Source of the DNA: Mycobacterium sp. UM_CSW
GTDB lineage: Bacteria; Actinomycetota; Actinomycetes; Mycobacteriales; Mycobacteriaceae
DNA length: 64,000 nt
NCBI RefSeq assembly: GCF_000455205.1
Contig: NZ_AUWQ01000005.1
Coordinates: 1-64,000 of the forward strand
Reading direction: 5' to 3'
Below the pieces are notes generated by a model, which was given only the letters and a program-made list of their open reading frames with translations, searched no databases and was not told the DNA's origin. Positions within the stretch are counted from its first letter, which is position 1, and every line of letters starts with the position of its first letter. Shown here piece by piece: positions 18 through 13,494 of the stretch. Made by a program: the position numbers and the translations under genes.

Positions 18-671
18 CTAGCGCGGGTCCCTGGGTGCCCGACGGCGGATCTGCCCCTTCGCCCGTCGCACCCGTTTCACCGGATCTCGGCTTGTGCCGC
101 CGGCGATCTCGTCGCGCAGCTGCGCGATGTTGGAGATCTCCGCATACAAACCGCGAATCGCATAGTCGAGCACCGCGAACGAGCAACGCTGGTCCGGGTC
201 ATCGGCCAGACCGAGGTCGCGAGAGCGCTGCCGCGACCACAGCGCCTCGTCCAGCCGGGCGCGGGTCGCCTCGAGATGGCGGTCCAGCGTGTCGACCAGG
301 TGTTCCGGATTTTCGCCGCGCGCAAGCCAGGTCTTGAGGATGACGGGGTGTTTGATGACCACCCGATCCTCGGCCGGAAAGTGCTGGACCCACCGGCGCA
401 GCGCGTCCAGGCCCGAATCGGTGGTCTCGTACAACGTGATCGCGCGCTTGCCGGATTGGGCGCCGATCTCGCTGACCATGCCCCGCTCCAGCAAGCGGTT
501 CAGCTCGCGCCGCACGTGGCTCACCGACGGCGACCAGTAGAAGTGGCCGACCGAAAGTTCGGCACGCATCTTGATCTCGCCGGCGGTGAGTTGCTCGTCG
601 TTGGCGGCCAACACGCCCAGCACCAGGTAGGCCGTCACCGGAAGGCCGTTGCTGGTGCGGGCGGGACTCAT
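18..671 (-). CDS. PadR-family transcriptional regulator
   Basis: A 217-residue DNA-binding protein. Its N-terminal half (about residues 10-95) reads as a PadR-type winged helix (LVLGVLAANDEQLTAGEIK, then a wing ending in LYETTDSG), followed by a helical C-terminal half rich in Arg and Glu, as in PadR proteins with the Vir-type dimerisation domain. The open frame continues upstream, but ATG at 671 is preferred: it overlaps the stop of the OB-fold gene as ATGA, and the residues before it are not domain-like. It is the last gene of the minus-strand catabolic operon, so it probably regulates that operon. Its ligand is unknown. Confidence 0.75.
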   Translation of the reverse strand: MSPARTSNGLPVTAYLVLGVLAANDEQLTAGEIKMRAELSVGHFYWSPSVSHVRRELNRLLERGMVSEIGAQSGKRAITLYETTDSGLDALRRWVQHFPAEDRVVIKHPVILKTWLARGENPEHLVDTLDRHLEATRARLDEALWSRQRSRDLGLADDPDQRCSFAVLDYAIRGLYAEISNIAQLRDEIAGGTSRDPVKRVRRAKGQIRRRAPRDPR

Positions 672-1090
672 TGCAATCCAGTGAAATACGGCAGGGTGAC
701 GTCGGCGCCGACGGCGTGGAATTGCACCCGGACGCGCATGCCGATCGCCAGGTCGCCCGGGTCCACCCCGACGACGTTGGTCAGCATCTGGTAGCCCTCG
801 TCCAGCGTGACGATCGCCGGCGCATAGGGCGGCTCGAATTCCGCGGTGACCGGGCGATGCACCACCGTCCAGCTGTAGATCTCGCCGAGCCCGCCGCTGC
901 ACTCCCACCGCAGTTCGGCCGAAAGGCACTGGCGGCAATGCTCGGTCGGCGGAAAGTTCGACAGGCCGCACGCTTCGCAGCGTTGGTAACGCAACTCCCC
1001 CGCCCCGCAGCCCTGCCAGAAGGGGACGCTGAGTTCGCTGCCGGCGTGGGGCACCGGCCCGGTCTGTGGCCGCAACGGTTCGGATGTCAT
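668..1090 (-). CDS. Zn-ribbon OB-fold (DUF35) protein, partner of the thiolase-like enzyme
   Basis: A 140-residue protein with an N-terminal rubredoxin-like zinc ribbon (C38, C41, C52, C55 in CEAC and CRQC) followed by an OB-fold strand pattern (GEIYSWTVVHRP, then GMRVRVQF). This is the DUF35 architecture. In steroid side-chain catabolism DUF35 domains (ChsH2) form a complex with a thiolase-like aldolase (Ltp2). Here it directly follows a thiolase-like gene with ATGA-type overlap (1087-1090), so a two-subunit enzyme acting on acyl-CoA is likely. The substrate cannot be read from the sequence. Confidence 0.82.
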   Translation of the reverse strand: MTSEPLRPQTGPVPHAGSELSVPFWQGCGAGELRYQRCEACGLSNFPPTEHCRQCLSAELRWECSGGLGEIYSWTVVHRPVTAEFEPPYAPAIVTLDEGYQMLTNVVGVDPGDLAIGMRVRVQFHAVGADVTLPYFTGLQ

Positions 1091-2262
1091 AACGCTTCGT
1101 CTCCCAAGATCAGCACTGTGGTGAACAGCGCTCCCGCACCCCCGTTGCTGCAGAACGCGATGTGCGCGTCGGGCACCTGGAGGTCACCGGCCTGGCCGCG
1201 CAGCTGCTGAACGGCCCGGACGGCCCGCTGCATCATCTGCGGATTGGAGCCGGCGTGGCTGAAGGACATGGTCCCCCCGTCGGTGGTGACCGGATGGCTG
1301 CCGTCGATCGCGATGTGGCCATCTGCGACGAACGGTCCGCCCTCGCCGTCGCCGCAGAAGCCGAAAGCCTCTAGCTGGCGGATGATTTCGAAGGAGAACG
1401 GATCGTAGAGCTCCAGCACATCGACGTCGTCGGGACGCAGGCCGGCGTGGGCGAAGGCCCGCTCGGCCGCGCGCCTGCCCACGACGCCATTGACGTAGTG
1501 GCCGTGATCGCCGCGCCGGCCGGCGAGGTCCCACGCGGGCGGGTGCTGATACGACGGGCCATGAAAGTCCGCGCCGCTGCCCAACGCGTAGATCGGTTGG
1601 CCGGCGACGTCCACCTGGTCGATGTTGGCCACGACGAGTGCGCAGCCGCCCTCGGAGGTGGTGGCGCAATCGAGGAGATGAAACGGGTCGGCGATCGGCC
1701 GCGACGCGGTGATGTCTTCCGGCGCGAACGGACCCCGTTGGTAGTAAACGGCTTCGGGGTTTCGCGACCCGTTGTTGCGAATGGTCGCCGCGACCATCGA
1801 CAGTTGTTCGCGGGTGGTGCCGTAGACGTGCATGTGGCGCCGGGCGATCAGCGCGAACTCGGCGGTGGTGAACATCCCCCAGGGCGCGACGAATTCGTTC
1901 TCGGGCCGGGTCCACGGAGCAGTGGCCTGATGGTCGCGGTATTCACCGGCTTGCGCGGCGACCAAGACGACGACGTCGGCCATGCCGTGCTCGATCGCGG
2001 CCGCCGCCTCGGTGATCATGCCTACCCCGAACGCCAGTCCCTGCCAGGCCGGCCCGAGGCGCAGGTCGTAGATCAACGCGGTGGACAGCGGGCCCGCGCT
2101 GATCCCGTCGACGTCCTCGAGGCTCAGGCCGGCGTCGGCGAGCGCTCCGTGAATGGCCTTGAGCGCCAGGCTTCGTGACGTTTCGCCGTCCAGTCGGCGG
2201 CCCTGCCGGGTGTTGTGCACTCCGGCGATCGCCGCGGTCCGCTTCGACGGGCTAGTTTTCAT
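1087..2262 (-). CDS. Thiolase-fold enzyme (lipid-transfer/Ltp2-like), first copy
   Basis: A 391-residue thiolase-superfamily protein. The start at 2262 gives the expected N-terminus (AAIAGVHNTRQGR...SLALKAIHGALADAGL) and removes 68 unrelated residues. The region where thiolases carry the nucleophilic Cys has no cysteine (AGPLSTALIYD..., GVGMITEAAAA). The C-terminal half keeps ELYDPFS, a GG-S-H motif (GGTMSFSHAGSNP) and a glycine-rich end. Lack of the nucleophile argues against ordinary thiolysis and favours an aldolase-like role with the DUF35 protein encoded next. The start overlaps the end of the preceding 109-residue gene by 11 bp, indicating one operon. Confidence 0.78.
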   Translation of the reverse strand: MKTSPSKRTAAIAGVHNTRQGRRLDGETSRSLALKAIHGALADAGLSLEDVDGISAGPLSTALIYDLRLGPAWQGLAFGVGMITEAAAAIEHGMADVVVLVAAQAGEYRDHQATAPWTRPENEFVAPWGMFTTAEFALIARRHMHVYGTTREQLSMVAATIRNNGSRNPEAVYYQRGPFAPEDITASRPIADPFHLLDCATTSEGGCALVVANIDQVDVAGQPIYALGSGADFHGPSYQHPPAWDLAGRRGDHGHYVNGVVGRRAAERAFAHAGLRPDDVDVLELYDPFSFEIIRQLEAFGFCGDGEGGPFVADGHIAIDGSHPVTTDGGTMSFSHAGSNPQMMQRAVRAVQQLRGQAGDLQVPDAHIAFCSNGGAGALFTTVLILGDEAL

Positions 2263-2581
2263 CCGCGACAACTCCCAGGTAGGTTCCGACGACGTCGTAT
2301 TGTTGCCCGTCGCGTTCGATGGTGCCGATCGTCGTGGTCCGCGCGCCGCGGGGTGCGGCACCGGTTTCGACCACGTCGATCCGCACGTCGATCGGCCGTG
2401 CCGATTGCGGATCGGTGATCTCGACGACCATCCCCACCGCCCGTTCGCTCTCGTCCCACTCGACACCGGTGATCCGATGGCGGGCGGTCAACTCCATCAC
2501 CACGGAGTCCTGGCGCACCAGGAACCGGACGGGGGCGCAGGGCTCGCCGGCGCGCGGCGGGACGCACAGCGTGACCGCCAC
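2252..2581 (-). CDS. Conserved-looking hypothetical protein, 109 aa
   Basis: A small protein starting with GTG at 2581, just overlapping the stop of the CoA-transferase gene, and ending inside the start of the thiolase-like gene. It looks like a beta-rich fold (VVMELTARHRITGVEWDE, AVGMVVEITDP, RPIDVRIDVVETG). I recognise no family. The tight overlaps on both sides and the codon usage support it as a real operon member. It may be a small accessory subunit of the acyl-CoA pathway, but that is inference. Confidence 0.6.
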   Translation of the reverse strand: MAVTLCVPPRAGEPCAPVRFLVRQDSVVMELTARHRITGVEWDESERAVGMVVEITDPQSARPIDVRIDVVETGAAPRGARTTTIGTIERDGQQYDVVGTYLGVVADEN

Positions 2582-2582
2582 G

Positions 2583-4916
2583 TCAGAGGCCCGCCGGGCG
2601 TGCGCTGGTGGCCCCCAAGGCGCGCAGCTCTACCAGATCCCGTTGGCTGCGGCCGAGAATTCCCGTCAGCACCTCGTCGGTGTGCTGGCCATACAGCGGG
2701 GGCACCCGCCGAAGCCAGCGTCGTGGCTTCCCGACGAAGGCGAAGGGCATGCCGGTGCACAGGAACGAACCCGCGACGGGGTGGTCGATCTCTTCCCAGA
2801 AGCCTCGGGCGAGCAGTTGCGGGTCGCTCAGCAGCTCCGCGGCCGGCGTGACGCGCGCCGCCGCCAGCCCGCCGGCGCGCAGCGCCGTCACCGCGTCGGT
2901 CGCCGAACGCCGGGCGGTCCAGCCGGAAATGAGCTTGTCGATTTCGTCGGCCCCTTCGCGCCAGGCGGCGCTGTCGGGGCCGAGGTCGGGTCGCTCGATG
3001 AGCGCCGCCAACGACGCGCGAGCGGCGTCTCCCAGGGCGGCGAGCGCGACCCATTCGTCGTCGCCACGGCACGGGTACACGCCCTGGGGTGTCGCGCCCG
3101 GGCCCCTGTTTCCGTTGCGGCGCAACTCGATCCCGTTGCGCGAGTACTCGACCACCACCTCGGCCGCCACGTTCAGCGCAGCCTCGACCATCGTCGACTC
3201 GACATGCATCCCGGTCCCGTCCCGGTCGCGAACCACGAGCGCCGCAATCGCCGCGAACGCGGCATGCAGCCCCGCCATCGGGTCGCATACCCCACGCGGG
3301 ATCACCGGCGGGCCGTCGGCGTGTCCGGTCACCCACGCCATTCCGGTCGCCTGCTCCATCGTCTGGGCGAAGCCCACGCGATCGCGCCACGGGCCGTCGA
3401 GGCCAAACGCGGGCATCCGCACCATGATCGCGCGCGGATTGGCCGCGGTCACCGCATCCCAGTCCAGGCCGAAATTCTCCATCACCCGCGGTGAGAAGTT
3501 CTCGATCACCAGATCGCTCGCGGCGATGAGCTCCAAGGCGATGGCGCGCCCTGCGTCGACGCTGAGTTCGGCGCTGATGCCGCGCTTGTTGTTGTTGCTG
3601 CACAAGAACACCGGGCCCCACTCCCACCACTGGTCCCAGTCGGGTGGGCGGCCGGCGGAGAGCCTCATGCCGTCGGGCCGGCGGACGCCCTCGAGCTTGA
3701 TCACGTCGGCGCCGAGGCAGCCCAGGAATTGGGTGGCGACCGGTCCCGCCCAGAACGCGGTGAAGTCGGTTATCCGTATGTCGGACAACGGGAGTGCGTC
3801 CGCGTCAGCGGCTGGCGGCCGGTGGGGCCGCGGCGGCCAGTGGACGCCGCCGTTGTCCGCGCCCAGCAGCGGGGGCCGTCCGGGCGGCGTGGTCGCCATC
3901 GCGTCGCTCCGATACGGCACCCGTGGCTGCACGCCGCCGGGTCCCGATTCGACGAAGACGCCGCGTTCGACGAAGTGGTCGACCTTCGGGAGTGTGGCCG
4001 GGGTGCCGATGGGAGCCACCGGGATGCGGAAGGCCACTGCGAGGTCGATGATCTCTTGCGTGGTACGGGTTTCCGTCCACTGCGTGACCATGCTGAGGAA
4101 TTCGTCGCGGCGCTCGACCCGTCCGACGAACGACGCGAGCTCGGCGTCGTCGAGCAGGTCGGCACGATCGATCATCACCAGAAAGTCCTGGAACTGTTGC
4201 GCGGTGATGGTGCAGAAGCCGACCATGCCGTCGGCCGTGGGAACGATCGACGGTAGTTCCAGGCTGCGTTGCTGCTGAAGGGAATCCGCGCCCAGCACGC
4301 TGGCCGACATGGCGGACAGCCCGCCCATCGCGATCGCCATCGCCTCGTAGGTCGAGACGTCGATGACCTCTCCGCCTCCGCCCCGGGCGGCGCGGCGGGC
4401 CGTCGCGGCGGCGACGGGCGCGGCGAACGAGCCGGCCAGCCACTCACCGAGCCGCCCACCCGCCTGTACTGGTTCGTCGCCCGGCCAGCCGCGGCCGTCG
4501 ATCGAGCCGCACAGGGCCTGCAGGATGAACTCGTTGGCCACCACCTGTTCTTCGACGTAGGGCCCGGTGGTGCCGAACGGCGTCACCGCCACGATCACCG
4601 CCGACGGTCCGGTGTGCGCGGTGATGTCGTCGAGGGTCCAGCCGTCGGTCAGGTCGGTGAGCACGATGTCGGCGCCGGCCAGCAGCGCCGCCGCCCGCCC
4701 ACGGTCGTTCACCGACTTCTTGCCGGCGGCCAGGTAGCCGAACAGTGCGCCGGCGGGTCCGCCGGCCGACCAGCTCCGCATCGAATCGCCCTGCGGTGAT
4801 TCAATTTTCACGACGTCGGCGCCGGCATCGACGAACATCTTGCCGCAGTAGGACACCGCGATGCCGTTGGATAACTCCAGCACCCGCCAGTCGGCGAACG
4901 GTGCCCGGGCGGCCAC
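2583..4916 (-). CDS. Fused family III CoA-transferase (CaiB/BaiF), two tandem domains
   Basis: A 777-residue protein made of two family III CoA-transferase domains. The N-terminal copy begins WRVLELSNGIAVSYCGKMFVDAGADVVKIE and the C-terminal copy begins near residue 380 (IRITDFTAFWAGPVATQFLGCLGADVIKLE). Such enzymes move CoA between carboxylic acids through an aspartyl-CoA thioester. The catalytic Asp is visible in the C-terminal half (RGVCDPMAGLHAAF), while the matching N-terminal place reads GEWLAGSF, with Glu. Fused proteins of this size (Rv1866 type) occur in mycobacteria. The GTG start directly follows the amidohydrolase stop, so the two are co-transcribed. It probably activates an acid as its CoA ester. 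Confidence 0.88.
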   Translation of the reverse strand: MAARAPFADWRVLELSNGIAVSYCGKMFVDAGADVVKIESPQGDSMRSWSAGGPAGALFGYLAAGKKSVNDRGRAAALLAGADIVLTDLTDGWTLDDITAHTGPSAVIVAVTPFGTTGPYVEEQVVANEFILQALCGSIDGRGWPGDEPVQAGGRLGEWLAGSFAAPVAAATARRAARGGGGEVIDVSTYEAMAIAMGGLSAMSASVLGADSLQQQRSLELPSIVPTADGMVGFCTITAQQFQDFLVMIDRADLLDDAELASFVGRVERRDEFLSMVTQWTETRTTQEIIDLAVAFRIPVAPIGTPATLPKVDHFVERGVFVESGPGGVQPRVPYRSDAMATTPPGRPPLLGADNGGVHWPPRPHRPPAADADALPLSDIRITDFTAFWAGPVATQFLGCLGADVIKLEGVRRPDGMRLSAGRPPDWDQWWEWGPVFLCSNNNKRGISAELSVDAGRAIALELIAASDLVIENFSPRVMENFGLDWDAVTAANPRAIMVRMPAFGLDGPWRDRVGFAQTMEQATGMAWVTGHADGPPVIPRGVCDPMAGLHAAFAAIAALVVRDRDGTGMHVESTMVEAALNVAAEVVVEYSRNGIELRRNGNRGPGATPQGVYPCRGDDEWVALAALGDAARASLAALIERPDLGPDSAAWREGADEIDKLISGWTARRSATDAVTALRAGGLAAARVTPAAELLSDPQLLARGFWEEIDHPVAGSFLCTGMPFAFVGKPRRWLRRVPPLYGQHTDEVLTGILGRSQRDLVELRALGATSARPAGL

Positions 4917-6272
4917 TCAGTTGCCCAGGGTGGTGGCGCGCCCGGCGATGCCCGTTATCTCGACCGTCGGCGGCGGCTGCCCCTGCGCCAGGGCCTGCAG
5001 ACCAGCCTGCGTCATCCGGGTCCACGCGTCGCGGTCGCGCTGGCCGGCCGGGCGGCCGACGTGTGTGACGACGTCGACGTCGCTGGCCTGCGAGCGCAGG
5101 TAGCCGGCGCGGGCGTGCTCCTTGGGGATGTACCGGAAGGGGTCGAACGAGTATGCGGCCATGGCATTTTGGTGCGTGATCTTGTCGATGACCGAGTCGT
5201 CCAGGTGCCCCATGGTCTCGATGACGTCCTCCGGTGCGAACGGCCAGTTGCTGTCGGAATGCGGGAAGTCGGACTCCCAGCACAGCATGTCCTCGTTGAA
5301 CCAATCCATGTTGCGCACGCCGACCTTGTCGCTGATGAAGCAGGTGTAGAAGTGGCGCTTGAACACATCGCTGGGTCCGGCATAGCCGGGTGGAAATTTC
5401 GCCAGCGTCCAGCCCGAGTGGCGGTTGTAGACGTGCTCGGCGCGCCAGAGGAAGTAGGGAATCCAGCCGACATCACCCTCGGTCAGCGAGAACTTCAGCT
5501 GCGGGAAGTCGGCCCAGAATTCGGCCCAGATCAGCTCGGTGAAGGTGAACATGCTCATCATCGACGACGCCGTCATCTGCACGCTGGGCGGCGCGTCCGT
5601 CGACACCTGCGGAGAGCGAGACGCCGAGCCCACATGGGTGCACAGCACCGTCTTGTTCTCGCAGACGGCCTCGAACAGCGGATACCAGTATTTGGTGTGA
5701 ATGCTGGGCATTTGCAAGGCTTCCGGGTTCTCCGAGAATGTCACCGCGTGGCAGCCCTTGTCGGCCAGCCGCTTGACCTCCTTGGCGGCCTCGGCGACGT
5801 CGAAGAGTGGCAGGATGCCGCAGGGGATGAACCGGCCCGGGTAGGCCGCACACCACTCGTCGACGTGCCAGTCGTTGTACGCCTTGATCATCACCAGGTT
5901 CACGTCACGGTCGGGACCCTGGTTGAGCACCTGGCCCGAGAAGCCGGTGAAATTGGGGAAGTTCAGGCCCGCCAGCTGCCCGCCGGCGTTCATGTCGCGG
6001 ACCCGCTCGTCGACGTTGAAGCAGCCCGGCCGCATCTCGTCGTAGCGCGAGGCGTCGATGTTGTACATCTCGCGGGGCTTTCCGGCGACGGCGTTCAGGC
6101 CCATGTTGCGTCCGCGAACCTCGCCGTAGTACCACTGCTGGACGCCGTCGGGTTCGAGGACCACCCGGGGGGCCAGGTCCCTATATTTCGCGGGGACGTG
6201 CGCGTCGAACATGTCGGCCGGCTCGGCGATGTGGTCGTCCACGCTGATCAGGATCAGGTCGTCCTTGTTCAT
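4917..6272 (-). CDS. Amidohydrolase-2 family metal-dependent hydrolase
   Basis: A 451-residue TIM-barrel amidohydrolase of the ACMSD/decarboxylase-like branch. The N-terminal metal motif appears as VDDHIAEP (residues 11-18), with later conserved stretches CTHVGS, LSLTEGDVGWIPYF and a C-terminal ESDFPHSDSNWP whose Asp is the typical last metal ligand. It is the first gene of the minus-strand operon and has a clear ribosome site (GAGGAG about 7 nt before ATG 6272). These enzymes hydrolyse or decarboxylate cyclic or aromatic substrates, so it may open a ring or remove a carboxyl group before or after CoA activation. Confidence 0.85.
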   Translation of the reverse strand: MNKDDLILISVDDHIAEPADMFDAHVPAKYRDLAPRVVLEPDGVQQWYYGEVRGRNMGLNAVAGKPREMYNIDASRYDEMRPGCFNVDERVRDMNAGGQLAGLNFPNFTGFSGQVLNQGPDRDVNLVMIKAYNDWHVDEWCAAYPGRFIPCGILPLFDVAEAAKEVKRLADKGCHAVTFSENPEALQMPSIHTKYWYPLFEAVCENKTVLCTHVGSASRSPQVSTDAPPSVQMTASSMMSMFTFTELIWAEFWADFPQLKFSLTEGDVGWIPYFLWRAEHVYNRHSGWTLAKFPPGYAGPSDVFKRHFYTCFISDKVGVRNMDWFNEDMLCWESDFPHSDSNWPFAPEDVIETMGHLDDSVIDKITHQNAMAAYSFDPFRYIPKEHARAGYLRSQASDVDVVTHVGRPAGQRDRDAWTRMTQAGLQALAQGQPPPTVEITGIAGRATTLGN

Positions 6273-6296
6273 GCCGCACTCCTCTGCCGATATAGC

Positions 6297-6444
6297 GACT
6301 AGTAGACAATGATTCCTGTCACAGAGTCAACGGCGCCGTGTGTCATGGCCGAGCGGCAAATACGTGCTGGCACCGCCATTATTCAACCGCTTCAATCGCC
6401 CGCCCACCATGGAGTCCCAGTCAATAGTGAGGGACTATTAGTCC
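6297..6444. promoter_or_regulatory. Divergent control region with GACTAKTAG motifs and overlapping inverted repeats
   Basis: This lies between divergent operons starting at 6272 (minus) and 6542 (plus). GACTAGTAG at 6297-6305 and GACTATTAG at 6433-6441 differ at one base and sit near each flanking gene. Around the second copy two inverted repeats overlap: AATAGT-N5-ACTATT (6423-6439) and GGACTA-T-TAGTCC (6432-6444). This looks like a repressor operator; the PadR regulator ending the minus operon is the obvious candidate, by inference. Confidence 0.4.
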
Positions 6445-6541
6445 AGCACTGCGGGTGAGCCCGGACGGGGGCCGCGCGTCCCACGTGGGTCGCCCTCCCG
6501 ATATTCGGGCGAATCGGCGCCCGGAGGCTGACGCATCGTCT

Positions 6542-7633
6542 ATGCATGTGGCTATGGCTGAAACCCAGGCTCCGAAGGCGCGCGCCGCGTGGCAGTTCTT
6601 CCAGCAGATGCTGGCCGACGTCACCAAGATCGTGACCGAGGACGCCGAATCTGAACGGGAGCTCCTCGAGGGGCTGCGCGTCATCGCCCGCGTCTCGTCG
6701 CTGTGTTCGCAACTGTCCGTCGAGGCCGACCCCGACCGGCCCGCGTTCTTCGATATGTGTTCTCCGACAAGGATGGTCGGCGGCCCCAACCCCGACGGCA
6801 ACTACTACCTGGCGATGATCCGCGGTGATCGGAGCTACCGGATCACCGGCACCCGAGGCACCAGCGCCTATCTCGGGTTTCAGATCCTGGCCGGCACTGG
6901 CCTGACCCCCCGCCGGATGGCGAACTACGTCAGCGACACCGGCTTGACGCTAAGCGGCGACGAGTTCGCGCTGGTGCTGTCTTCGGAAGAACCCGCCGAT
7001 CTCGCCGGCGCGCAATGGGTGAAGATTCCCGAGGACGCGTCCTCGGTTGTCGTCCGCGAGTACATCGGCGATCCCGCCTCCGAGACGTTGGCCACCATGC
7101 GCATCGACGCCCTGGACCCCGACCCCGTCGCGCCGTTGACCGACGACGAACTCGCCGACCAGTTCACGGCGATGGCGTGGTCGCTGATGAAGCTGGTCAC
7201 GCTGCACCGCACCATCAAGCCCGAGCTCCTGGAGACGCCCAACACCCTGCTGACCGCCGAGGCCGCCGATCTGGGTGCCGCCGACACCACGCCGGACAAC
7301 CTGTACATGATGGGGACATTCCGGCTCGATCCCGGGCAGGCGCTGGTTCTCGACATCGAGCCGCCCGACACGCGCTACTGGAACGTGACGCTGGAAAGCC
7401 TCTGGCACGAGTGCCTGGAGCCGCGCCGCCGGCACAGCTCGGTGACAAGTCGCGCGGTGCGGCCCGACGCGGACGGGCGGGTGCGGATCGCCATCTCGGC
7501 GGAGGACTTCGGCATCGGCCACTGGCTCGACACCGGCGGCCGGCACCGCGGGTTCGTGGTGGTGCGCTGGCTGGACAACCCCAGCCCGCCGGACGTCTCG
7601 GTGTCGGTCCACGAGGGAAAGGTCCGGGCATGA
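6542..7633 (+). CDS. DUF1214 domain-containing protein
   Basis: A 363-residue protein with the DUF1214 pattern: NPDGNYYLAMIRGDRSYRITGTRGTSAYLGFQ near the N-terminus and the C-terminal block WNVTLESLWHECLE...VTSRAV...DGRVRIAISAEDFG. The function of this family is poorly known; members often sit beside lipid or steroid catabolic genes. The start is uncertain: ATG 6542 (GGAGG 14 nt upstream) and ATG 6554 are both possible, and the longer open frame to 6455 is unlikely. The stop overlaps the sulfotransferase start as ATGA, so the pair is one operon. Confidence 0.75.
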   Translation: MHVAMAETQAPKARAAWQFFQQMLADVTKIVTEDAESERELLEGLRVIARVSSLCSQLSVEADPDRPAFFDMCSPTRMVGGPNPDGNYYLAMIRGDRSYRITGTRGTSAYLGFQILAGTGLTPRRMANYVSDTGLTLSGDEFALVLSSEEPADLAGAQWVKIPEDASSVVVREYIGDPASETLATMRIDALDPDPVAPLTDDELADQFTAMAWSLMKLVTLHRTIKPELLETPNTLLTAEAADLGAADTTPDNLYMMGTFRLDPGQALVLDIEPPDTRYWNVTLESLWHECLEPRRRHSSVTSRAVRPDADGRVRIAISAEDFGIGHWLDTGGRHRGFVVVRWLDNPSPPDVSVSVHEGKVRA

Positions 7634-8802
7634 CGCTGCAGGAGCGATTCGCCCCGGAGCGGCTGATCGCCGCCGCCTGCGAGGAGGCCGGGAGTGACGA
7701 CTTCGGCGACGACGGGTGGCAGGCCGGGCTGCAGCGGCTGACCGATGGGCTGGTCAACGAGGCGCGTTTGTCGGCGATCGGGGTAGAGATCGCCTACCTC
7801 GACGTCATGCGTGCCCTGAAGAACCGGCTCGGCGTAATCGACTGGCGCAAGCAACATCCGGAGGTCGCCGACAAGCCGATCACGGCGCCGATCTTCATCG
7901 TGGGCCAGCCGCGCAGCGGCACCACGATCCTCTATGACCTGCTCGCCCAGGACCCCGACCTGCGGGCGCCGCTGACGTGGGAGGTGGATGCGCCCTGTCC
8001 GGTCCCGCAGCCCGAGACCTATCACGACGATCCGCGGATCGCGCAGACGCAGGCCAGCATCGAACTCTCCGAGCAGATCATCCCGGGGTTCTTGGCATTT
8101 CACCCGATGGGCGCGCTCGTCGGGCAGGAGTGCGTCCGCATCACGGCCAGCGAGTTCACCAGCATGATCTTCTCGGTGCAATACCGGCTGCCGAGCTACT
8201 ACCGCTGGCTGCTGTACGAGGCCGACCACACCGGCGCCTACCGCTTCCACCGAATCTTCCTGCAGCACCTGCAGTCCGGCGTTCCCGGTCAGTGGCTCCT
8301 GAAATCGCCGGCGCACCTGTGGCACCTCGACACCCTGCTCGCCGAATATCCGGACGCGCTGATCGTGCAGACCCACCGCGATCCGCTCAACGTCATCTCG
8401 TCGATCGCCGCGCTGACCCACCACCTGCGGCGGATGGGCAGCGACGAATCCGACATCGCCGAGTGCGCGGCCCAGTCCTACGAAGAAGTGGTCGTCGGCC
8501 TCGAGCGCGGGATGGCTTTGCGCGACAGCGGCGCGGTGCCGCCCGGCCGCGTGGTGGACGTCCTGTTCACCGATTTCATGAACGACCCGTGGACCACGAT
8601 CAAGGACATCTACCAAAAGCTGGGCCGCGAGCTGAAACCCGAGGCCGCACAGCGGATGCGCGACTTCCTGGCTGCCCACCCCGGCGACGGCGGGGGCAGC
8701 CGATACACGTGGTCGGACACCGCCCTGGACGCCGCCGAGGTCCGCGACCGGGTGAGCGCCTATCAGGACCGCTACGGGGTACCGACCGAGCGGCTGAAGT
8801 AA
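7630..8802 (+). CDS. Sulfotransferase family protein
   Basis: A 390-residue sulfotransferase. The 5'-phosphosulfate-binding loop is clear at residues 91-99 (VGQPRSGTT), followed by strand-helix patterns typical of Stf-type enzymes (WLLKSPAHLWHLDTLLAEYPDALIVQTHRDP, with the Arg and Ser that contact the 3'-phosphate). It would transfer sulfate from PAPS to a hydroxyl or lipid acceptor. Mycobacteria carry many such genes and the acceptor cannot be deduced. ATG 7630 overlaps the DUF1214 stop, which fixes the start against a longer upstream open frame. Confidence 0.88.
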   Translation: MTLQERFAPERLIAAACEEAGSDDFGDDGWQAGLQRLTDGLVNEARLSAIGVEIAYLDVMRALKNRLGVIDWRKQHPEVADKPITAPIFIVGQPRSGTTILYDLLAQDPDLRAPLTWEVDAPCPVPQPETYHDDPRIAQTQASIELSEQIIPGFLAFHPMGALVGQECVRITASEFTSMIFSVQYRLPSYYRWLLYEADHTGAYRFHRIFLQHLQSGVPGQWLLKSPAHLWHLDTLLAEYPDALIVQTHRDPLNVISSIAALTHHLRRMGSDESDIAECAAQSYEEVVVGLERGMALRDSGAVPPGRVVDVLFTDFMNDPWTTIKDIYQKLGRELKPEAAQRMRDFLAAHPGDGGGSRYTWSDTALDAAEVRDRVSAYQDRYGVPTERLK

Positions 8803-8828
8803 TTGGCGCCTAACGTGCCGGCCGAGGT

Positions 8829-8880
8829 CCCGGCTGGCCGGGCGTTCGAATCCTTTCGCCCGGCTGGGCGGGCGCTCGAA
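8829..8880. repeat. Two-copy 22-bp direct repeat between convergent genes
   Basis: 8829-8850 and 8859-8880 both begin CCCGGCTGG and end CGAA. They match at 20 of 22 positions and are separated by the 8 bp TCCTTTCG (30-bp period). The repeat lies in the 85-bp gap between the sulfotransferase and OB-fold stop codons. It could be a seed for a variable-number repeat or a shared terminator structure. Confidence 0.7.
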
Positions 8881-8887
8881 GCGAGGC

Positions 8888-9295
8888 TTACGCGGGTTCG
8901 TACCGCAGCATGGTGACGTCGTGCTCGGGATAGTCACAGAACACCGGGCGCACCCGCATCCCGACCCTCAGCTCCGCCGGGTCGACGTGCACCATCTCGG
9001 TGGAAAACCTTGGCCCCTCGTCCCATTCGACAATGGCCAGCAGCTGGGGAACCGCGTCGGCGAAGTGCGGACCGACGGGGCGGCGCGCCACCGTGAACGA
9101 GTACAGCGTTCCCATCCCGGATATCTCGCGCCATTCCAGGTCGTCGGCCAGGGTATGCGGGGCACGCACCCGCGGATAGAACACGTAGCTTTGCGACGAC
9201 GGCGAATACTGGACGACGATGCGGTGCTCGGCCAGCGCATCCCAAAATGGCGCGGTGGTCGGCGTTTTGACGGGCATCGGCCGCTCGAGGGTCAT
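8888..9295 (-). CDS. OB-fold (DUF35-like) protein with degenerate zinc ribbon
   Basis: A 135-residue relative of the 668-1090 protein. The OB-fold half is well preserved (GMGTLYSFTVARRPVGPHFAD, LRVGMRVRPVFCDYPEHDVTMLRYEP), but the N-terminal ribbon has lost all four cysteines: the region reads VVQYSPSSQSYVFYPRVRAPHT. It sits 2 bp downstream of the second thiolase-like gene. It is probably the partner subunit of that enzyme, with the zinc site not needed for assembly. The function beyond this is inferred. Confidence 0.78.
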   Translation of the reverse strand: MTLERPMPVKTPTTAPFWDALAEHRIVVQYSPSSQSYVFYPRVRAPHTLADDLEWREISGMGTLYSFTVARRPVGPHFADAVPQLLAIVEWDEGPRFSTEMVHVDPAELRVGMRVRPVFCDYPEHDVTMLRYEPA

Positions 9296-9297
9296 CG

Positions 9298-10506
9298 TCA
9301 GTCTCCCTGCAGGATGAGCGCCGTCTGCTCGGACAGGATTCCACCGTTGCCGGAGACGAAGGCGCGGTTGCAGTCGGCGACCTGAGCCGCGCCGGCGCGC
9401 CCCATGATCTGGCGGGTGGCGTCACATACGTGGTGCATGCCGCCCGCCAATCCGGCCTGGCCGAAACCGAGTTGGCCGCCGGCGGTGTTGAGCGGGAAGT
9501 CGCCGCGGAAGGTCAGGTCGTGGTTGGCGACGAACTCCATGCCCTTGCCCTTCTCGCAGAACCCCGCGTCCTCCAACGACAGCAGCACGGTGATGGTGTA
9601 GCAGTCGTAGATCGACACCATGTCCATGTCATGGCGGGTCAGATCGGTCATCGCGAAGGCGGTGTCCGCGGCCTCCGCGATCGGGGTGTGCAGCAGATCC
9701 TTTGCGTAGGTCGGGGTTTTGAACGGCACGTGCTCGCCGAATCCCTTGATCCACACCGGACGATTGCGAGACCGCCGCGCCAGGTCGGCGTTCGCAACGA
9801 CGACGGCGGCGCCGCCGACGCAGGGCATCACGATCTCGAGCATGTGCAACGGGTCGGCGATCACCGGGCTGGCGATGACGTCCTCCACGGTGAGCGGCTT
9901 GTCCTTCCAGATCGCGCCCTCGGTGTAGTTGGCGTTGACCCGCTGGTCGACGACGATCTTGGCCATCGCCCGCTCGTCGTAGCCGTAGACGGCCGCGTAG
10001 CGCTGGGCGACCTGGCCGTACGGGCCGTTCTGGCCGAGGTTGCCGTATGGGATCTCGAATTCCGCCTGCGGGGAGCCATATTGGTTGCTCGATGAGCCGA
10101 AGTACAGGGCGTCGCCGTAGGTTTTGGGCTTCTTCTTGGACATGGGAGTGATGTAGCGGGCGGGCAGCGCGCACAGGACCGCCTCGCAGATGCCGAGTTC
10201 GACGGCGGCGGCCGCCCGCCACACCATCGCCGCGGCGCTGGCCCCGCCGAGGTCAACGTGCTCGGCGAATCTCGCCCCGACACCGAGGTATTCGGCGATC
10301 GTCGAGGGTACGAAGATCTCCGACTCGGCCAGGTGCGAGGCCACGATGCCGTCGACGACCTCGAACGGCAGTCCGGCGTCGCCCAGCGCGGCGGCACCGA
10401 GCTCGGCCCATTGCTCGATGGCGAAAGGCGCGGGTGACGCCTTGCTCATGCGCTCAGGCGGCAGCTCGACGTACCCGGCGATCGCGGCTTCTCCACGTAA
10501 TCCCAT
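9298..10506 (-). CDS. Thiolase-fold enzyme (lipid-transfer/Ltp2-like), second copy
   Basis: A 402-residue thiolase-superfamily protein paralogous to that at 1087-2262. Where classic thiolases have the nucleophilic Cys it reads DLGGASAAAMVWRAAAAVELG, with none. Other family stretches are kept: MVSIYDCYTITVLLSLEDAGFCEKG, NTAGGQLGFGQAGLAGGMHHV and the glycine-rich NGGILSEQTALIL. It is followed by its DUF35 partner and preceded by the fused acyl-CoA dehydrogenase, so a dehydrogenation then carbon-carbon cleavage series is plausible. No hydratase gene was seen in this cluster. Confidence 0.8.
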   Translation of the reverse strand: MGLRGEAAIAGYVELPPERMSKASPAPFAIEQWAELGAAALGDAGLPFEVVDGIVASHLAESEIFVPSTIAEYLGVGARFAEHVDLGGASAAAMVWRAAAAVELGICEAVLCALPARYITPMSKKKPKTYGDALYFGSSSNQYGSPQAEFEIPYGNLGQNGPYGQVAQRYAAVYGYDERAMAKIVVDQRVNANYTEGAIWKDKPLTVEDVIASPVIADPLHMLEIVMPCVGGAAVVVANADLARRSRNRPVWIKGFGEHVPFKTPTYAKDLLHTPIAEAADTAFAMTDLTRHDMDMVSIYDCYTITVLLSLEDAGFCEKGKGMEFVANHDLTFRGDFPLNTAGGQLGFGQAGLAGGMHHVCDATRQIMGRAGAAQVADCNRAFVSGNGGILSEQTALILQGD

Positions 10507-10515
10507 GCGGTGTCC

Positions 10516-12741
10516 TTATTTCCGGGGCAAACCGAGAATCATCTGCGCGATGATGTTCAGCTGGATCTCCCTCGTCCCGCCGCCGATCAGCTCGGCCGGC
10601 AGGTGCAGATAGGGTTCCACGACCGCGGCGTCGGGGTCATCGACCATCGCCACCTGCCCGGTCAGCTGCAGCGTGGCCTCGAAGGTGCGGCGCAGCAACA
10701 CGTTCATCGCCACCTTGGCGATGCTCGAAGCCGGACCGGACGCCTGCCCGTCGAGTAGCCGGATGGTTTCCCGCACGCCGAGCGCCCGGATGGCGTTGGT
10801 GTAGGCGTCGAGTTCGCCAAGCTCACGCAGGGCATCGTCACGATCCGGCCCGGGTTGTACGGCGAGGCGGCGGAGCGCGACGGCCCGATCGAACTTGACG
10901 TATCCGCTGATGGCCGAACGCTCTTCGGCCATCGTGGCGATCGCCAGGCTCCAGCCTTCGGTGGGGCCGCCCAGCAACATCTCGTCGGGAACGAAGACGT
11001 CGTTGAAGAACACCTCGTTGAAGTGCGCCTGCCCGGTCGCCGTCTTGATGGGCTGGATTTCGATTCCGGGCGACCGCATGTCGATGATGAAGTAGCCGAT
11101 GCCGCGATGCTTGCTGGCTTCGGGGTCGGTGCGCGCCAGCAGCGCGCCCAGGTCGGCGTACTGCGCCAACGAGGTCCAGATCTTGTGGCCGTTGATCCGC
11201 CAGCCGCCGTCGACCTTGGTGGCCCGGGTGGCCAGCGACGCCAGGTCGGAGCCCGCACCCGGCTCGCTGAACAGCTGGCACCAATGGATCTCGCCGCGCT
11301 GGGTCGCCGGGATCAGCTTCTCCTGCAGCTCTTTTGGTGCGGCGGTCAGCACCGAGGGCAGGATCCACTCGGCGATGTTCAGCGATGGCCGGACCAAGGC
11401 GGGCCGCTTGGCGAACTCCTCGTCGATGATGAGCTGTTTGAGCGGGCCCGCGTCGACGCCCCATGGCGCGGGCCAGTGCGGCGCCATCAGCCCGGCGTCC
11501 GCGAGCAGCGTGCGCTGCGGCCCGGAGGCCTGGTCCGGGTAGTCGCCGTGCGGCGCGGGCGTGTCATTGCGCAACTGCATTGCCGCGTCGAGGGTTTCGG
11601 CGACCCAGGCACGAAACTCGGATTCGGCGTCGCCGAGGTTGACGGACATGTCGCGGGTCCCGGTGCAGGTGAGCTCGCCCAGCCGCCGCGCCCAGCGGTT
11701 CGCCGGTCCGATCGATCCCGCCAGGCTGATGGCCCGGCGCCAGTACAGGTGCATGTCATGTTCCCAGGTGAAGCCGATGGCGCCGAGCATGGTCAGCGCG
11801 TCGAGCACCAGGTCCGGAATCGGCGAGACGGCGATCGTCGCCGCCCCGCCCGCGGCGAGGCGGTGCTGGTCGAGTGGTTCGTCCACGGCGCGGACCGCGT
11901 CCCAGGCCGCGGCGGTCGCCAACTCCGTGTTGACGAGCAGCATCGCCGCGCTGTGCTGCAGGGCCTGAAAGGTACCGATCACCTTGCCGAACTGCTCGCG
12001 GATTCGCAGGTGCGAGGTGACCGCGTCGACACACCACTGCGCGATGCCGGCCATCACGCTGGCTACCAATCCGACGGCGACGCACTCGGCGCGGTCGGCG
12101 TCGAGCCCCCCGAGCACGGCGGACTCGGCGGCGACGTATTCGCTCAACCGCAAGATCCCCACATCGGTCACCAGGTCGGTGCCGCGCACGGATTCGGCTG
12201 CCGCCGTGGGCTGTGTGGTGTCAACCGCCACCCAGATGTCGTCGTCTTCCCCGGTCCGAGCGCACACCAGGACGACCCGCGCCGAACAGACGCCCGCCGT
12301 CACGTCCGACGCGCCGTTGACCACCCAGCCTTGGCCGTCGCGACGCGCGTGGAAGTCACCGCCACCGGGAAGGACGACCGCCGCAGGCAAGCCGGACGCG
12401 AGGTCGCGCACCAGTGACTCCGCGGTCAGGTTCGGATCGGCAAGCAGCGCAACGGCTCCCGCGGTCACGGTTGGCAGGAGCGGGCCGGGCAGCAACGCCT
12501 TGCCGGCCGATTCCAGCACACACGCCGCGTCGATGAGCCGTCCGCCCTGGCCCCCGAGGCGCTCGGGCAGGTGCACCGCGTGAAAGCCGTTGGCAACCAA
12601 CGCGTCCCACCACTCCGGAAGGCATCCTGCGGCCAAGTCGTCGAAGCTCTCGCGGGTCGCGGCGATCGGGGCGTGCCGGCCGGCGAACTGGGCGACGGCG
12701 TCGCTGAGGTCCTGTTGTTCCGGGGTCAGTCCCAGCGTCAT
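10516..12741 (-). CDS. Fused double acyl-CoA dehydrogenase (FadE type)
   Basis: A 741-residue protein of two acyl-CoA dehydrogenase domains: residues 1-360 (LTPEQQDLSDAVAQFAGRHAP..., GTFQALQHSAAMLLVNTELATAAAWDAV) and about 375-741 (WCQLFSEPGAGSDLASLATRATKVDGGWRINGHKIWTSLAQYADLGALLART..., GGGTREIQLNIIAQMILGLPRK). The second half keeps the flavin and substrate motifs more completely. Fused or heteromeric FadEs of this kind (FadE34/ChsE3) act on bulky steroid-type acyl-CoAs. The start is taken at ATG 12741; a GTG at 12771 would add ten residues. A 12-codon upstream ORF ends on this ATG. Confidence 0.85.
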   Translation of the reverse strand: MTLGLTPEQQDLSDAVAQFAGRHAPIAATRESFDDLAAGCLPEWWDALVANGFHAVHLPERLGGQGGRLIDAACVLESAGKALLPGPLLPTVTAGAVALLADPNLTAESLVRDLASGLPAAVVLPGGGDFHARRDGQGWVVNGASDVTAGVCSARVVLVCARTGEDDDIWVAVDTTQPTAAAESVRGTDLVTDVGILRLSEYVAAESAVLGGLDADRAECVAVGLVASVMAGIAQWCVDAVTSHLRIREQFGKVIGTFQALQHSAAMLLVNTELATAAAWDAVRAVDEPLDQHRLAAGGAATIAVSPIPDLVLDALTMLGAIGFTWEHDMHLYWRRAISLAGSIGPANRWARRLGELTCTGTRDMSVNLGDAESEFRAWVAETLDAAMQLRNDTPAPHGDYPDQASGPQRTLLADAGLMAPHWPAPWGVDAGPLKQLIIDEEFAKRPALVRPSLNIAEWILPSVLTAAPKELQEKLIPATQRGEIHWCQLFSEPGAGSDLASLATRATKVDGGWRINGHKIWTSLAQYADLGALLARTDPEASKHRGIGYFIIDMRSPGIEIQPIKTATGQAHFNEVFFNDVFVPDEMLLGGPTEGWSLAIATMAEERSAISGYVKFDRAVALRRLAVQPGPDRDDALRELGELDAYTNAIRALGVRETIRLLDGQASGPASSIAKVAMNVLLRRTFEATLQLTGQVAMVDDPDAAVVEPYLHLPAELIGGGTREIQLNIIAQMILGLPRK

Positions 12742-12776
12742 GACCGCGACCCCGCGCGGCTGAGGCGACACGCCAT
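12738..12776 (-). CDS. Possible 12-codon upstream ORF coupled to the fused acyl-CoA dehydrogenase
   Basis: An ATG at 12776 opens a frame encoding MACRLSRAGSRS. Its TGA stop overlaps the dehydrogenase ATG as ATGA. A purine-rich stretch GGAAGGGG lies 12 nt upstream. The dehydrogenase ATG itself has no visible ribosome site, so translation may be coupled through this leader. It is short and could be chance. Confidence 0.35.
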   Translation of the reverse strand: MACRLSRAGSRS

Positions 12777-12798
12777 CGAAGACCGCTGCCCCTTCCTT

Positions 12799-12822
12799 AC
12801 AAGACGAACCGTCTCGTCTTGT
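12799..12822. promoter_or_regulatory. TetR-type operator, 9-bp perfect inverted repeat
   Basis: ACAAGACGA (12799-12807), a 6-bp spacer, then TCGTCTTGT (12814-12822). It lies between the divergent dehydrogenase operon and the TetR gene at 12910, where an autoregulating TetR repressor would bind. Confidence 0.7.
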
Positions 12823-12909
12823 GGCAGACTACGGGGCGGGTCAAGATATGTAAAGCGGACCAGATCCGGCGGACGACCGGCGACACCTGGGGAGATGAGG
12901 ATCACTTAG

Positions 12910-13494
12910 ATGCCAACCGATCTCACCCAGAGCTACCCGAGGCGCCGCAGCGAGAAATCGCGCACGGCCATCGTGACGGCGACCCGAGAACTGCTTCTCG
13001 AGCGCGGATTCGACGGCCTGACCATCGAGGCGGTGGCCGCCCGGGCCGGTGTGGGAAAGCAGACCATCTATCGCTGGTGGCCCAGCCGTCCGGTGCTGGT
13101 CGCCGACGTCATGCTCGAGGACGCGGACAAGATCCTGGCGTCGGTGGACCACACCGACGACCTGGCGGCCGACCTCGTCGGGTGGGTTCGCAAACTTGCC
13201 GCAACGCTGACCGCACCGCGGGGCTCGGCGATGCTGCGCATCCTGACCGTCGCCTGCATGGAGCACCCGGAAACCGCCGCCAAACTGCGGGCCGGGTTCA
13301 GTTTGCCGCTGCATGAAAGCGTCCGCAGCCGGCTTCTCGCGGACGGTATCGACGAGGCAACGGCCGAGTCAGCGGCCGACGCCATCGTCGGCGGCGTGGT
13401 GTACCCGATTCTCTCTGACGCACAGTCATATTCACGACGCCGAGCCGAGCGCACCACCCGGATCATCGTCGAGGCGCTCGGGGCCCGCCGCTGA
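12910..13494 (+). CDS. TetR-family transcriptional regulator
   Basis: A 194-residue regulator with a textbook N-terminal TetR helix-turn-helix ([52 protein letters not shown], about residues 17-65) and a C-terminal ligand-binding helical domain. It is divergent from the fused acyl-CoA dehydrogenase operon with a perfect palindrome between them, so it probably represses that operon and itself in response to an acyl-CoA-like ligand. Its 3' end overlaps the convergent pyruvate-kinase-like gene by 63 bp. Confidence 0.9.

Follow-up and report, generated by a model that had tools for sequence, protein, structure and literature searches.

Two Cys-less thiolase–DUF35 modules at one mycobacterial locus: a Sal/Atf1-type steroid operon beside a putative oxygenase–retro-aldolase module

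The locus and its two operons

The window analysed here, a stretch of 64,000 nucleotides from Mycobacterium sp. UM_CSW, starts at the first base of contig NZ_AUWQ01000005.1 (contig C5 below) in a genome of 6.39 Mb and 186 contigs. Near its left edge, in two operons on the minus strand, lie two gene pairs, each of which encodes a thiolase-fold protein without the nucleophilic Cys of thiolases together with a DUF35 protein. The reading that we favour, with modest confidence, is that the interval comprises two catabolic modules, each built on such a pair: module A, of the Sal/HBC type, and module B, in which an acyl-coenzyme A (acyl-CoA) would be hydroxylated and then cleaved by a retro-aldol reaction. 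At module level the basis for this reading is observational, consisting of sequence classes, the conservation of ligands and motifs, operon structure and gene linkage, and from it we infer the activities of module B.

Operon 1 reads AmidoH (4917..6272; PF04909), CoAT2 (2583..4916), P3small (2252..2581), ThlA (1087..2262; P0002), DUF35a (668..1090; P0001) and, as its last gene, a PadR-like regulator (18..671). With the starts of the open reading frames (ORFs) as assumed, neighbouring genes are separated by 0–1 bases or overlap by 4–11. Operon 2 consists of FadE2 (10516..12771), Sal (9298..10506; P0005) and DUF35b (8888..9295; P0004), with a TetR regulator gene (12910..13494, plus strand; PF00440, TetR_N) divergent from FadE2. 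The two pairs had been recognised in an earlier note on this DNA and are confirmed as ORFs, both thiolase folds matching PF22691 (Thiolase_C_1) and both DUF35 proteins PF01796 (OB_ChsH2_C), to which DUF35a adds PF12172. The fused CoA-transferase and fused FadE of that note are likewise present: CoAT2 is a fused double family-III CoA-transferase with two stretches of PF02515, and FadE2 is, by Pfam, a fused acyl-CoA dehydrogenase pair whose N-terminal half matches 6wy8_A (Tcur3481) and whose C-terminal half matches 6wy8_B (Tcur3483). Operon 1 also holds P3small, a conserved protein of 109 amino acids.

Loss of the nucleophilic Cys among the thiolase-like proteins

Aligned with the paralogues of the same genome and four PDB chains, neither ThlA nor P0005 has a Cys in the nucleophile column, and hence neither carries the residue that defines a canonical thiolase. 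The absence noted earlier is thus real, yet it is shared by 13 of the 20 thiolase-like proteins of the genome, the remaining seven having the Cys (21 proteins matched, of which L021, a fragment of 73 amino acids, was left out), and the idea that it is a rarity falls. As to a nucleophilic Cys elsewhere, both proteins do hold a Cys of interest outside that column: C302 of P0005 is of a catalytic type, corresponding to the proposed proton donor of CtSal, and C371 of ThlA is a conserved Cys in the C-terminal loop. The first position of the YDxF motif is Tyr in 12 of the 13 Cys-less proteins and in one of the seven Cys-containing ones (Fisher p 0.0012, for paralogues that are not independent of one another).

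The motifs fall into classes, namely YDCY with Gln (Sal), YDHF with Tyr344 (Ltp2), YDSF with His, YDGF with Arg, and YDP with His (ThlA). Three Ltp2-type proteins, which carry YDHF and the equivalent of Tyr344, are encoded in this genome, but neither window protein is one of them, P0002 having YDPF with His336 and P0005 YDCY with Gln350. The TcLtp2–ChsH2(DUF35) complex (PDB 6OK1), which had been offered as the precedent for both pairs, does resemble them in its Cys-less thiolase fold, its Tyr base and its DUF35 partner; in the tree, however, TcLtp2 stands in a clade separate from P0002 and P0005. Motifs and tree together rule out that both pairs are Ltp2 aldolases, and the precedent does not carry over: pair 2 is of the Sal/Atf1 kind with YDCY, and pair 1 groups with neither the Ltp2 nor the Sal pair. 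Comparable with ThlA are also the thiolase-like 4U4E and YDGF groups, represented in this genome by L005, L010 and L013, which are also Cys-less with Tyr in YDxF; in this set DUF35 genes adjoin L003 and L010, and in L005 the DUF35 protein is fused. ThlA differs from them in forming its own clade (support 100/100, stem 0.69 changes per column in a tree of 35 proteins) and in its YDP, SH and, mostly, C371. The fusion protein L005 itself (C17:8397-9509; 564 amino acids, DUF35 with a YDGF-class Cys-less thiolase) has 49% and 44% identity to an unfused pair in a Massilia putida plasmid cluster.

Pair 2 as a Sal/Atf1-type system

P0005 matches PDB entry 9MYR, the CtSal–CtShy(DUF35) complex of Comamonas testosteroni (PMC12329534), with 455 bits and identity at 215 of 399 aligned residues (54%), and it groups with CtSal at 100/100 in the tree. 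Tyr302, Cys304, Tyr305, Gln347 and Gln352 of CtSal correspond to Y300, C302, Y303, Q345 and Q350 of P0005, which has the motif Y300-D-C302-Y303, and all five are invariant in the 17 sequences aligned. Cys304 is proposed in the account of CtSal to be a proton donor and not a nucleophile, and YDCY homologues are noted there in cholesterol-degrading Actinobacteria (PMC12329534). Together with the missing nucleophile and the HBC operon partners at 8888..13494, these features place P0005 by sequence among the Sal/Atf1-type steroid retro-aldolases; the aldolase role that had been proposed for both pairs fits here.

The HBC operon of Mycolicibacterium neoaurum is printed as atf1-chsH4-chsE6-kstR3, where ChsH4 is a DUF35-only protein of 138 amino acids and KstR3 a negative regulator, the role of ChsE6 being left open in the text available; deletion of atf1 abolishes the formation of 4-HBC, which sal1 of Pseudomonas restores (PMC10398937). 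Judged by the kinds of genes described, the M. neoaurum sequences themselves lying outside the comparison, module A has the same content: a Sal-like aldolase, a DUF35-only protein (DUF35b, ChsH4-like, 135 amino acids), an acyl-CoA dehydrogenase-like protein (FadE2, ChsE6-like) and a TetR regulator, which is named KstR3-like from this shared gene set. The gene order differs slightly from the printed one, in which atf1 precedes chsH4, and, unlike the operon as described, module A adjoins module B and its predicted operator also precedes fadD1. A thl aldolase with a role equal to that of Atf1 has been described (PMC12409849), and according to a 2021 review Rhodococcus jostii RHA1 lacks a homologue of Sal1 and employs a thiolase in its place (PMC8399759). 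Since the Sal/Atf1 operon has been published (PMC10398937, PMC12329534), pair 2 is, on its sequence, a new member of that sterol operon kind and the already known half of the locus. The suggestion of an undescribed pathway consequently fails for pair 2; it may hold for pair 1, whose clade and module are uncharacterised.

Pair 2 is like CtSal–CtShy also in having a DUF35 partner. CtShy, however, is fused to a MaoC hydratase and has a C3H1 zinc site, whereas DUF35b is a separate protein that has lost the zinc Cys residues. This loss is general: the residues are absent in 15 of 15 aligned Sal-linked DUF35 proteins (DUF35b and those of 14 other loci), and likewise in the DUF35 copy on a Rhodococcus qingshengii plasmid, such that the zinc-less actinobacterial proteins stand apart from the C4 and C3H1 sites described for TcChsH2 and CtShy.

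A second Sal operon of the same genome (C41:85972-90855, L073) has the order FadE-FadE-MaoC-MaoC-Sal-DUF35. Some 3 kb beyond it stands a FadD1-like gene, and some 14 kb beyond it an oxygenase-like gene of PF04909. The R. qingshengii plasmid has the content of this C41-type operon with two CoA-transferase genes in between. This sister operon and the plasmid, together with the resemblance of the FadE2 halves to the two 6wy8 chains, suggest that ChsE6 is a dehydrogenase that makes the enoyl-CoA.

Variants of module A occur elsewhere. In genome G147 a gene for an NAD-dependent epimerase/3-beta-hydroxysteroid dehydrogenase-like protein (L254:6696-7706) lies between TetR and FadE2, with a similar start in L092; its best NCBIfam models are HpnA and the sterol demethylase SdmB, both below cut-off, and its product is a candidate C22-aldehyde reductase. 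The HBC region of G147 appears decayed, having a short Sal match only (L254:4354-4467), as does that of G167 (L252), where FadE2 is shortened and a Sal match was not found, though TetR and the operator are kept. Further afield, a relative of Sal with 55% identity to P0005 is encoded on two Vibrio alfacsensis plasmids (NZ_AP024168.1 and NZ_CP140104.1).

A predicted palindromic operator shared with fadD1

The predicted KstR3 site at 12799..12822, between TetR and FadE2, is a palindrome, ACRAGACGNNNCGTCTYGT, whose 19-base core is perfect in 30 of 30 TetR–FadE2 intergenic regions, these being the loci among 90 examined in which the FadE2 and TetR starts lie within 1500 bases. In its own genome there is, besides this one perfect site (12799), one with a single mismatch (C147:9512-9530), which stands 27 bp upstream of fadD1 (C147:9557); nine further sites have two mismatches, one of them overlapping the first site, and a reversed control gives eight at that limit. 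By synteny with genomes G124, G069 and G136, fadD1 abuts the left edge of the window. The palindrome precedes fadD1 in 49 of 59 loci listed, or in 46 of 56 when repeats are counted once (the start of fadD1 could be located in 59 of 87 loci, and three contigs appear twice by their lengths, as L085/L122, L086/L144 and L089/L197). Across 20 genomes all ten perfect sites fall between TetR and FadE2, and of the ten sites with one mismatch four precede fadD1, one lies between TetR and FadE2 and five are elsewhere. Each of the two Sal clusters has a FadD1-like gene as neighbour, in one case as judged by synteny alone. Against the FadD1 model (cut-off 800) the FadD1 protein from a sister genome reaches 1015 bits, with FadD17 (614) and CasI (524) next and below their cut-offs.

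From this sharing of the palindrome, fadD1 and the Sal operon probably belong to a single regulon. Operon 1 appears to lie outside it, as it has a PadR-like gene of its own and lacks this operator; the PadR-like label is our reading of weak Pfam matches (MarR_2 and Vir_act_alpha_C), both below cut-off, for a gene whose start at 671 is taken from the ORF.

Pair 1, a distinct Cys-less thiolase–DUF35 pair

Judged by sequence, the Cys-less thiolase and DUF35 protein of pair 1 represent a new variant, from an uncharacterised clade and set in an oxygenase-containing module on which no publications were found in the open-access literature. ThlA has the motif Y286-D-P-F-S, and Y286, D287, P288, H336 and C371 are invariant in all 81 aligned rows; the invariance of YDPFS is partly circular because one of the two patterns used in the collection scan was LYDP[FN]SFE, whereas H336 and C371 lay outside the search patterns. 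The AlphaFold2 model of ThlA has a pLDDT of 83.3 and a pTM of 0.88. DUF35a, unlike DUF35b, keeps a four-Cys zinc ribbon. ThlA does not share the YDCY motif or the clade of Sal/Atf1. It keeps the presumed base Tyr with neither of the two known acids, so that the aldolase role claimed earlier is, for pair 1, a reasonable inference from sequence in which the acid partner would differ.

Relatives of P0002 are found in 13 of 201 genomes of the family (E<=1e-70) and in 17 of 394 of the class (E<=1e-90). The best named matches are Mycobacterium species, with 99% identity to Mycobacterium sp. E796; most of these named species are slow growers.

Two other roles for ThlA–DUF35a have to be set against retro-aldol cleavage. 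The pair might be an unusual thiolase or acyltransferase, Cys371 or His336 taking the place of the lost nucleophile, and the invariance of both residues in 81 of 81 rows would fit this, as would the position of H336, which aligns with a His in 7YVY. In the Mycobacterium proteins, nevertheless, the very loop of the lost Cys is shortened, a Tyr instead of the His in YDxF characterises the Cys-less group, and the alignment of C371 is ambiguous by one column, all of which make this role improbable. More improbable still is that the pair binds bulky CoA esters without catalysis, as their carrier or scaffold, a notion to which the name 'lipid-transfer protein' of several weakly matching family models lends itself, and likewise the fact that no known catalytic pair is complete in ThlA; a mere carrier would not need active-site residues, and the retention of Y286, D287, H336 and C371 in 81 of 81 rows (with YDP partly circular, as said) argues against it.

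The 'amidohydrolase' as a predicted dinuclear oxygenase

The first gene of operon 1 had been called an amidohydrolase. PF04909, however, includes the dinuclear oxygenases PtmU3, AibH2 and SfbO (PMC10811679, PMC10401708), and the best solved relatives of AmidoH (4917-6272) are DitZ (8uyr, 312 bits over residues 2-402) and PtmU3 (6omp, 90 bits). In AibH2 the metals are bound by Asp25, His27, His211, Glu265 and Asp337, with His340 and Asp342 nearby (PMC7782822). The corresponding set of AmidoH, D12, H14, H213, E265, D335, H338 and D340 (D-x-H/H/E/D-x-x-H-x-D), is that of a dinuclear oxygenase and is complete in 80 of 80 close relatives (70% identity or more) and 20 of 20 distant ones (under 50%), counting only matches that span AmidoH residues <=10 to >=345, in an alignment made without mononuclear PF04909 members as a control. 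On this ligand set and the DitZ/PtmU3 similarity we reject the reading as a plain hydrolase, and the protein is better read as a predicted DitZ/PtmU3-type dinuclear oxygenase, for which the name 'amidohydrolase' is misleading. With this, the chemistry proposed for the operon would change from hydrolysis to hydroxylation.

In other words, AmidoH is like PtmU3, DitZ and AibH2 (PMC7782822, PMC10811679) in its full ligand set, and is aligned with DitZ over residues 2-402, the comparison with DitZ being one of PDB entry name and sequence match; it is unlike all three in sharing one operon with a Cys-less thiolase–DUF35 pair and a fused CoA-transferase. PtmU3 is reported to act as a beta-hydroxylase and to take CoA-ligated substrates (PMC7782822). 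From Pseudomonas abietaniphila, which no longer grows on several resin acids when its sterol-carrier-like gene ditF carries an insertion, a 5-hydroxy resin acid is reported whose structure is that of a beta-hydroxy acid; the authors suggest that a different P450 may form it (PMC13063091), and we do not ascribe it to DitZ.

In platensimycin biosynthesis the PtmU3 hydroxylation precedes ring A cleavage. The association of such an oxygenase with a Cys-less thiolase may extend beyond operon 1. Seven of the 13 Cys-less thiolases of the genome, but none of the seven Cys-containing ones, lie within 20 kb of a strong AmidoH relative (two-sided Fisher p 0.0445), where about one of 13 would be expected by coverage; the ligands were checked in three of the 14 own-genome oxygenase relatives (C5, C41 and C14:42436). 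A Massilia putida plasmid cluster combines a 42% identical oxygenase relative, a long CoA-transferase (28% to the second half of CoAT2) and a YDGF-class Cys-less thiolase–DUF35 pair. The pairing of oxygenase and Cys-less thiolase may recur in several Cys-less thiolase clades and in terpenoid-type clusters. In all, Mycobacterium sp. UM_CSW has 14 strong relatives of AmidoH (>200 bits).

Conservation of module B and its apparent independence of Sal

Linkage was assessed in the best 80 of 179 stretches from the collection scan, at >=50% identity and with flanks of up to 10 kb, some contigs being shorter. Near ThlA in these 80 loci are found DUF35a in 80, CoAT2 in 73, P3small in 72, AmidoH in 72, PadR in 66 and Sal in 45. 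In Actinomadura and Streptosporangium (L194-L196 and L198) the module B set is kept with its order shuffled and with Sal absent within the flanks, and this retention of content despite changed order indicates a functional module that is independent of Sal. The same can be seen in family f20 of the same class (11 loci, L219-L229), where CoAT2 and PadR accompany ThlA in 10 of 11 and AmidoH (72% identity or more) and DUF35a in 9 of 11, whereas neither P3small nor Sal was found in any of the 11 loci. A locus of Mycolicibacterium moriokaense (L183) likewise has AmidoH, CoAT2, P3small, ThlA, DUF35a and PadR, with no HBC operon in the flanking sequence. Conversely, four Mycobacterium genomes (G052, G099, G187 and G197) have the Sal operon and no ThlA match at E<=1e-70.

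The modules therefore occur apart, which rules out a single fixed pathway of the kind first envisaged; what survives of that idea is the palindrome common to the Sal operon and to fadD1, at the opposite end of the cluster. A rival reading is that both modules serve one sterol side-chain route. Acetyl-CoA would first be released by Sal, the C22 acid formed on oxidation of the aldehyde would be re-activated by FadD1, and ThlA–DUF35a, as the second retro-aldolase, would take off the C3 remnant, as Ltp2 does elsewhere. To the shared palindrome may be added, in its favour, the FadD1-like genes by both Sal clusters (FadD17 and CasI being next best, below cut-offs) and the presence of Sal within the ThlA flanks in 45 of 80 relatives. 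Nevertheless, the genome already encodes three proteins of the Ltp2 type (YDHF together with the equivalent of Tyr344), ThlA is without Sal within its flanks in Actinomadura, Streptosporangium and family f20, operon 1 is without the operator, and the route has no need of an oxygenase, such that we regard it as unlikely, if the least so of the alternatives considered. Two modules, one of them built around an oxygenase, remain our preferred reading.

As to the other members of module B, the C-terminal half of CoAT2 has the benzylsuccinate CoA-transferase subunit 9fn0_B as its best match. P3small, which is present in Mycobacterium operon 1 and in the Actinomadura and Streptosporangium loci, has no Pfam match over cut-off; it is all-beta by prediction, with an AlphaFold2 pLDDT of 83.6 and no PDB match at E<=0.001 in a fold comparison of the model, and its C6, C15 and H35 are invariant in 35 of 35 aligned sequences, the C-terminus being nearly fixed. 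Outside Mycobacterium a small Cys-containing protein stands beside the acyl-CoA ligase of module B (L099, L100, L111, L194-L196 and L198); two copies were scanned and gave no Pfam family over cut-off.

Between the two modules lie two plus-strand genes, for a DUF1214 protein (6455..7633; PF06742) and for a sulfotransferase-family protein (7618..8802; PF13469). On contig C55 a 28% identical paralogue of the former stands a few kb from a KshA gene and a 34% identical paralogue of the latter about 1 kb from it, hinting at a steroid link.

Proposed reactions

In module A, FadE2 would make the enoyl-CoA of the side chain and a hydratase encoded elsewhere would add water, after which Sal–DUF35b, using Tyr300 as its base and Cys302 as its acid, would carry out the retro-aldol cleavage of the 22-hydroxylated C5 side chain of the steroid to give acetyl-CoA and the C22 aldehyde. 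Such cleavage has been shown for CtSal (PMC12329534) and, genetically, for Atf1 (PMC10398937). After oxidation of the aldehyde, FadD1, which is related to FadD17 and CasI, could re-activate the C22 acid, and the KstR3-like TetR protein would act as repressor at the palindrome at 12799.

In module B, an acid, probably a polycyclic terpenoid or steroid acid, would be activated as its CoA thioester, either by a ligase or by the fused CoA-transferase, and the DitZ/PtmU3-type oxygenase would hydroxylate the carbon beta to the thioester. Hydroxylation by an oxygenase is possible at a hindered carbon at which dehydrogenation and hydration may fail. The alpha–beta bond would then be broken by ThlA–DUF35a in a retro-aldol reaction for which Tyr286 would be the base and either His336 or Cys371 the acid. 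The route needs neither dehydrogenase nor hydratase, and in this it fits the gene content of operon 1. A wider generalisation, which we consider a serious possibility and not yet the probable case, is that for hindered acyl-CoAs a PF04909 oxygenase carries out the beta-hydroxylation, including at ring-fusion carbons that are out of reach of normal beta-oxidation, and a dedicated Cys-less thiolase–DUF35 pair of the YDP kind, with Tyr, His and Cys, makes the cut.

Several observations weigh against this scheme. For module B, ThlA conforms to neither known aldolase pair, as Pro occupies the position of CtSal Cys304 and His that of TcLtp2 Tyr344, and the two most distant relatives aligned (L041 and L042) lack C371, one being also without H336 and one without P288. 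Its Rhodococcus relatives (41%) adjoin enoyl-CoA hydratase genes, which fits hydration as the first step and speaks against the oxygenase route. A Rieske or ferredoxin partner, such as some members of the oxygenase group have, was absent from the ten window proteins scanned, a set smaller than the full gene complement of the window, and the contrast in proximity between Cys-less and Cys-containing thiolases is not significant at 5 kb (p 0.52) or 10 kb (p 0.25). For the regulatory link, 10 of the 59 fadD1 loci are without the palindrome, a search before operon 1 did not find it, and G187 has an HBC operon with no palindrome at <=1 mismatch. At that limit the 20 genomes give 20 forward sites (in 13 genomes) against nine (in seven) for the reversed control. 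Deletion of kstR3 in M. neoaurum changed four genes of the HBC region and three without clear sterol link, and fadD1 is not named among them in the text available (PMC10398937).

Implications

The module A half of the locus is already explained and is not to be reported as new. The operator result predicts that fadD1 belongs to the KstR3 regulon in these mycobacteria. Module B, on the other hand, offers a testable reaction for two orphan groups of proteins, the dinuclear PF04909 'amidohydrolases' and the Cys-less thiolase–DUF35 pairs. If the proposal is true, it would offer an explanation for the bacterial cleavage of bulky terpenoid or steroid acids at positions where ordinary beta-oxidation is blocked, and the pairs would be a source of catalysts for the cleavage or, run backwards, the formation of C–C bonds.

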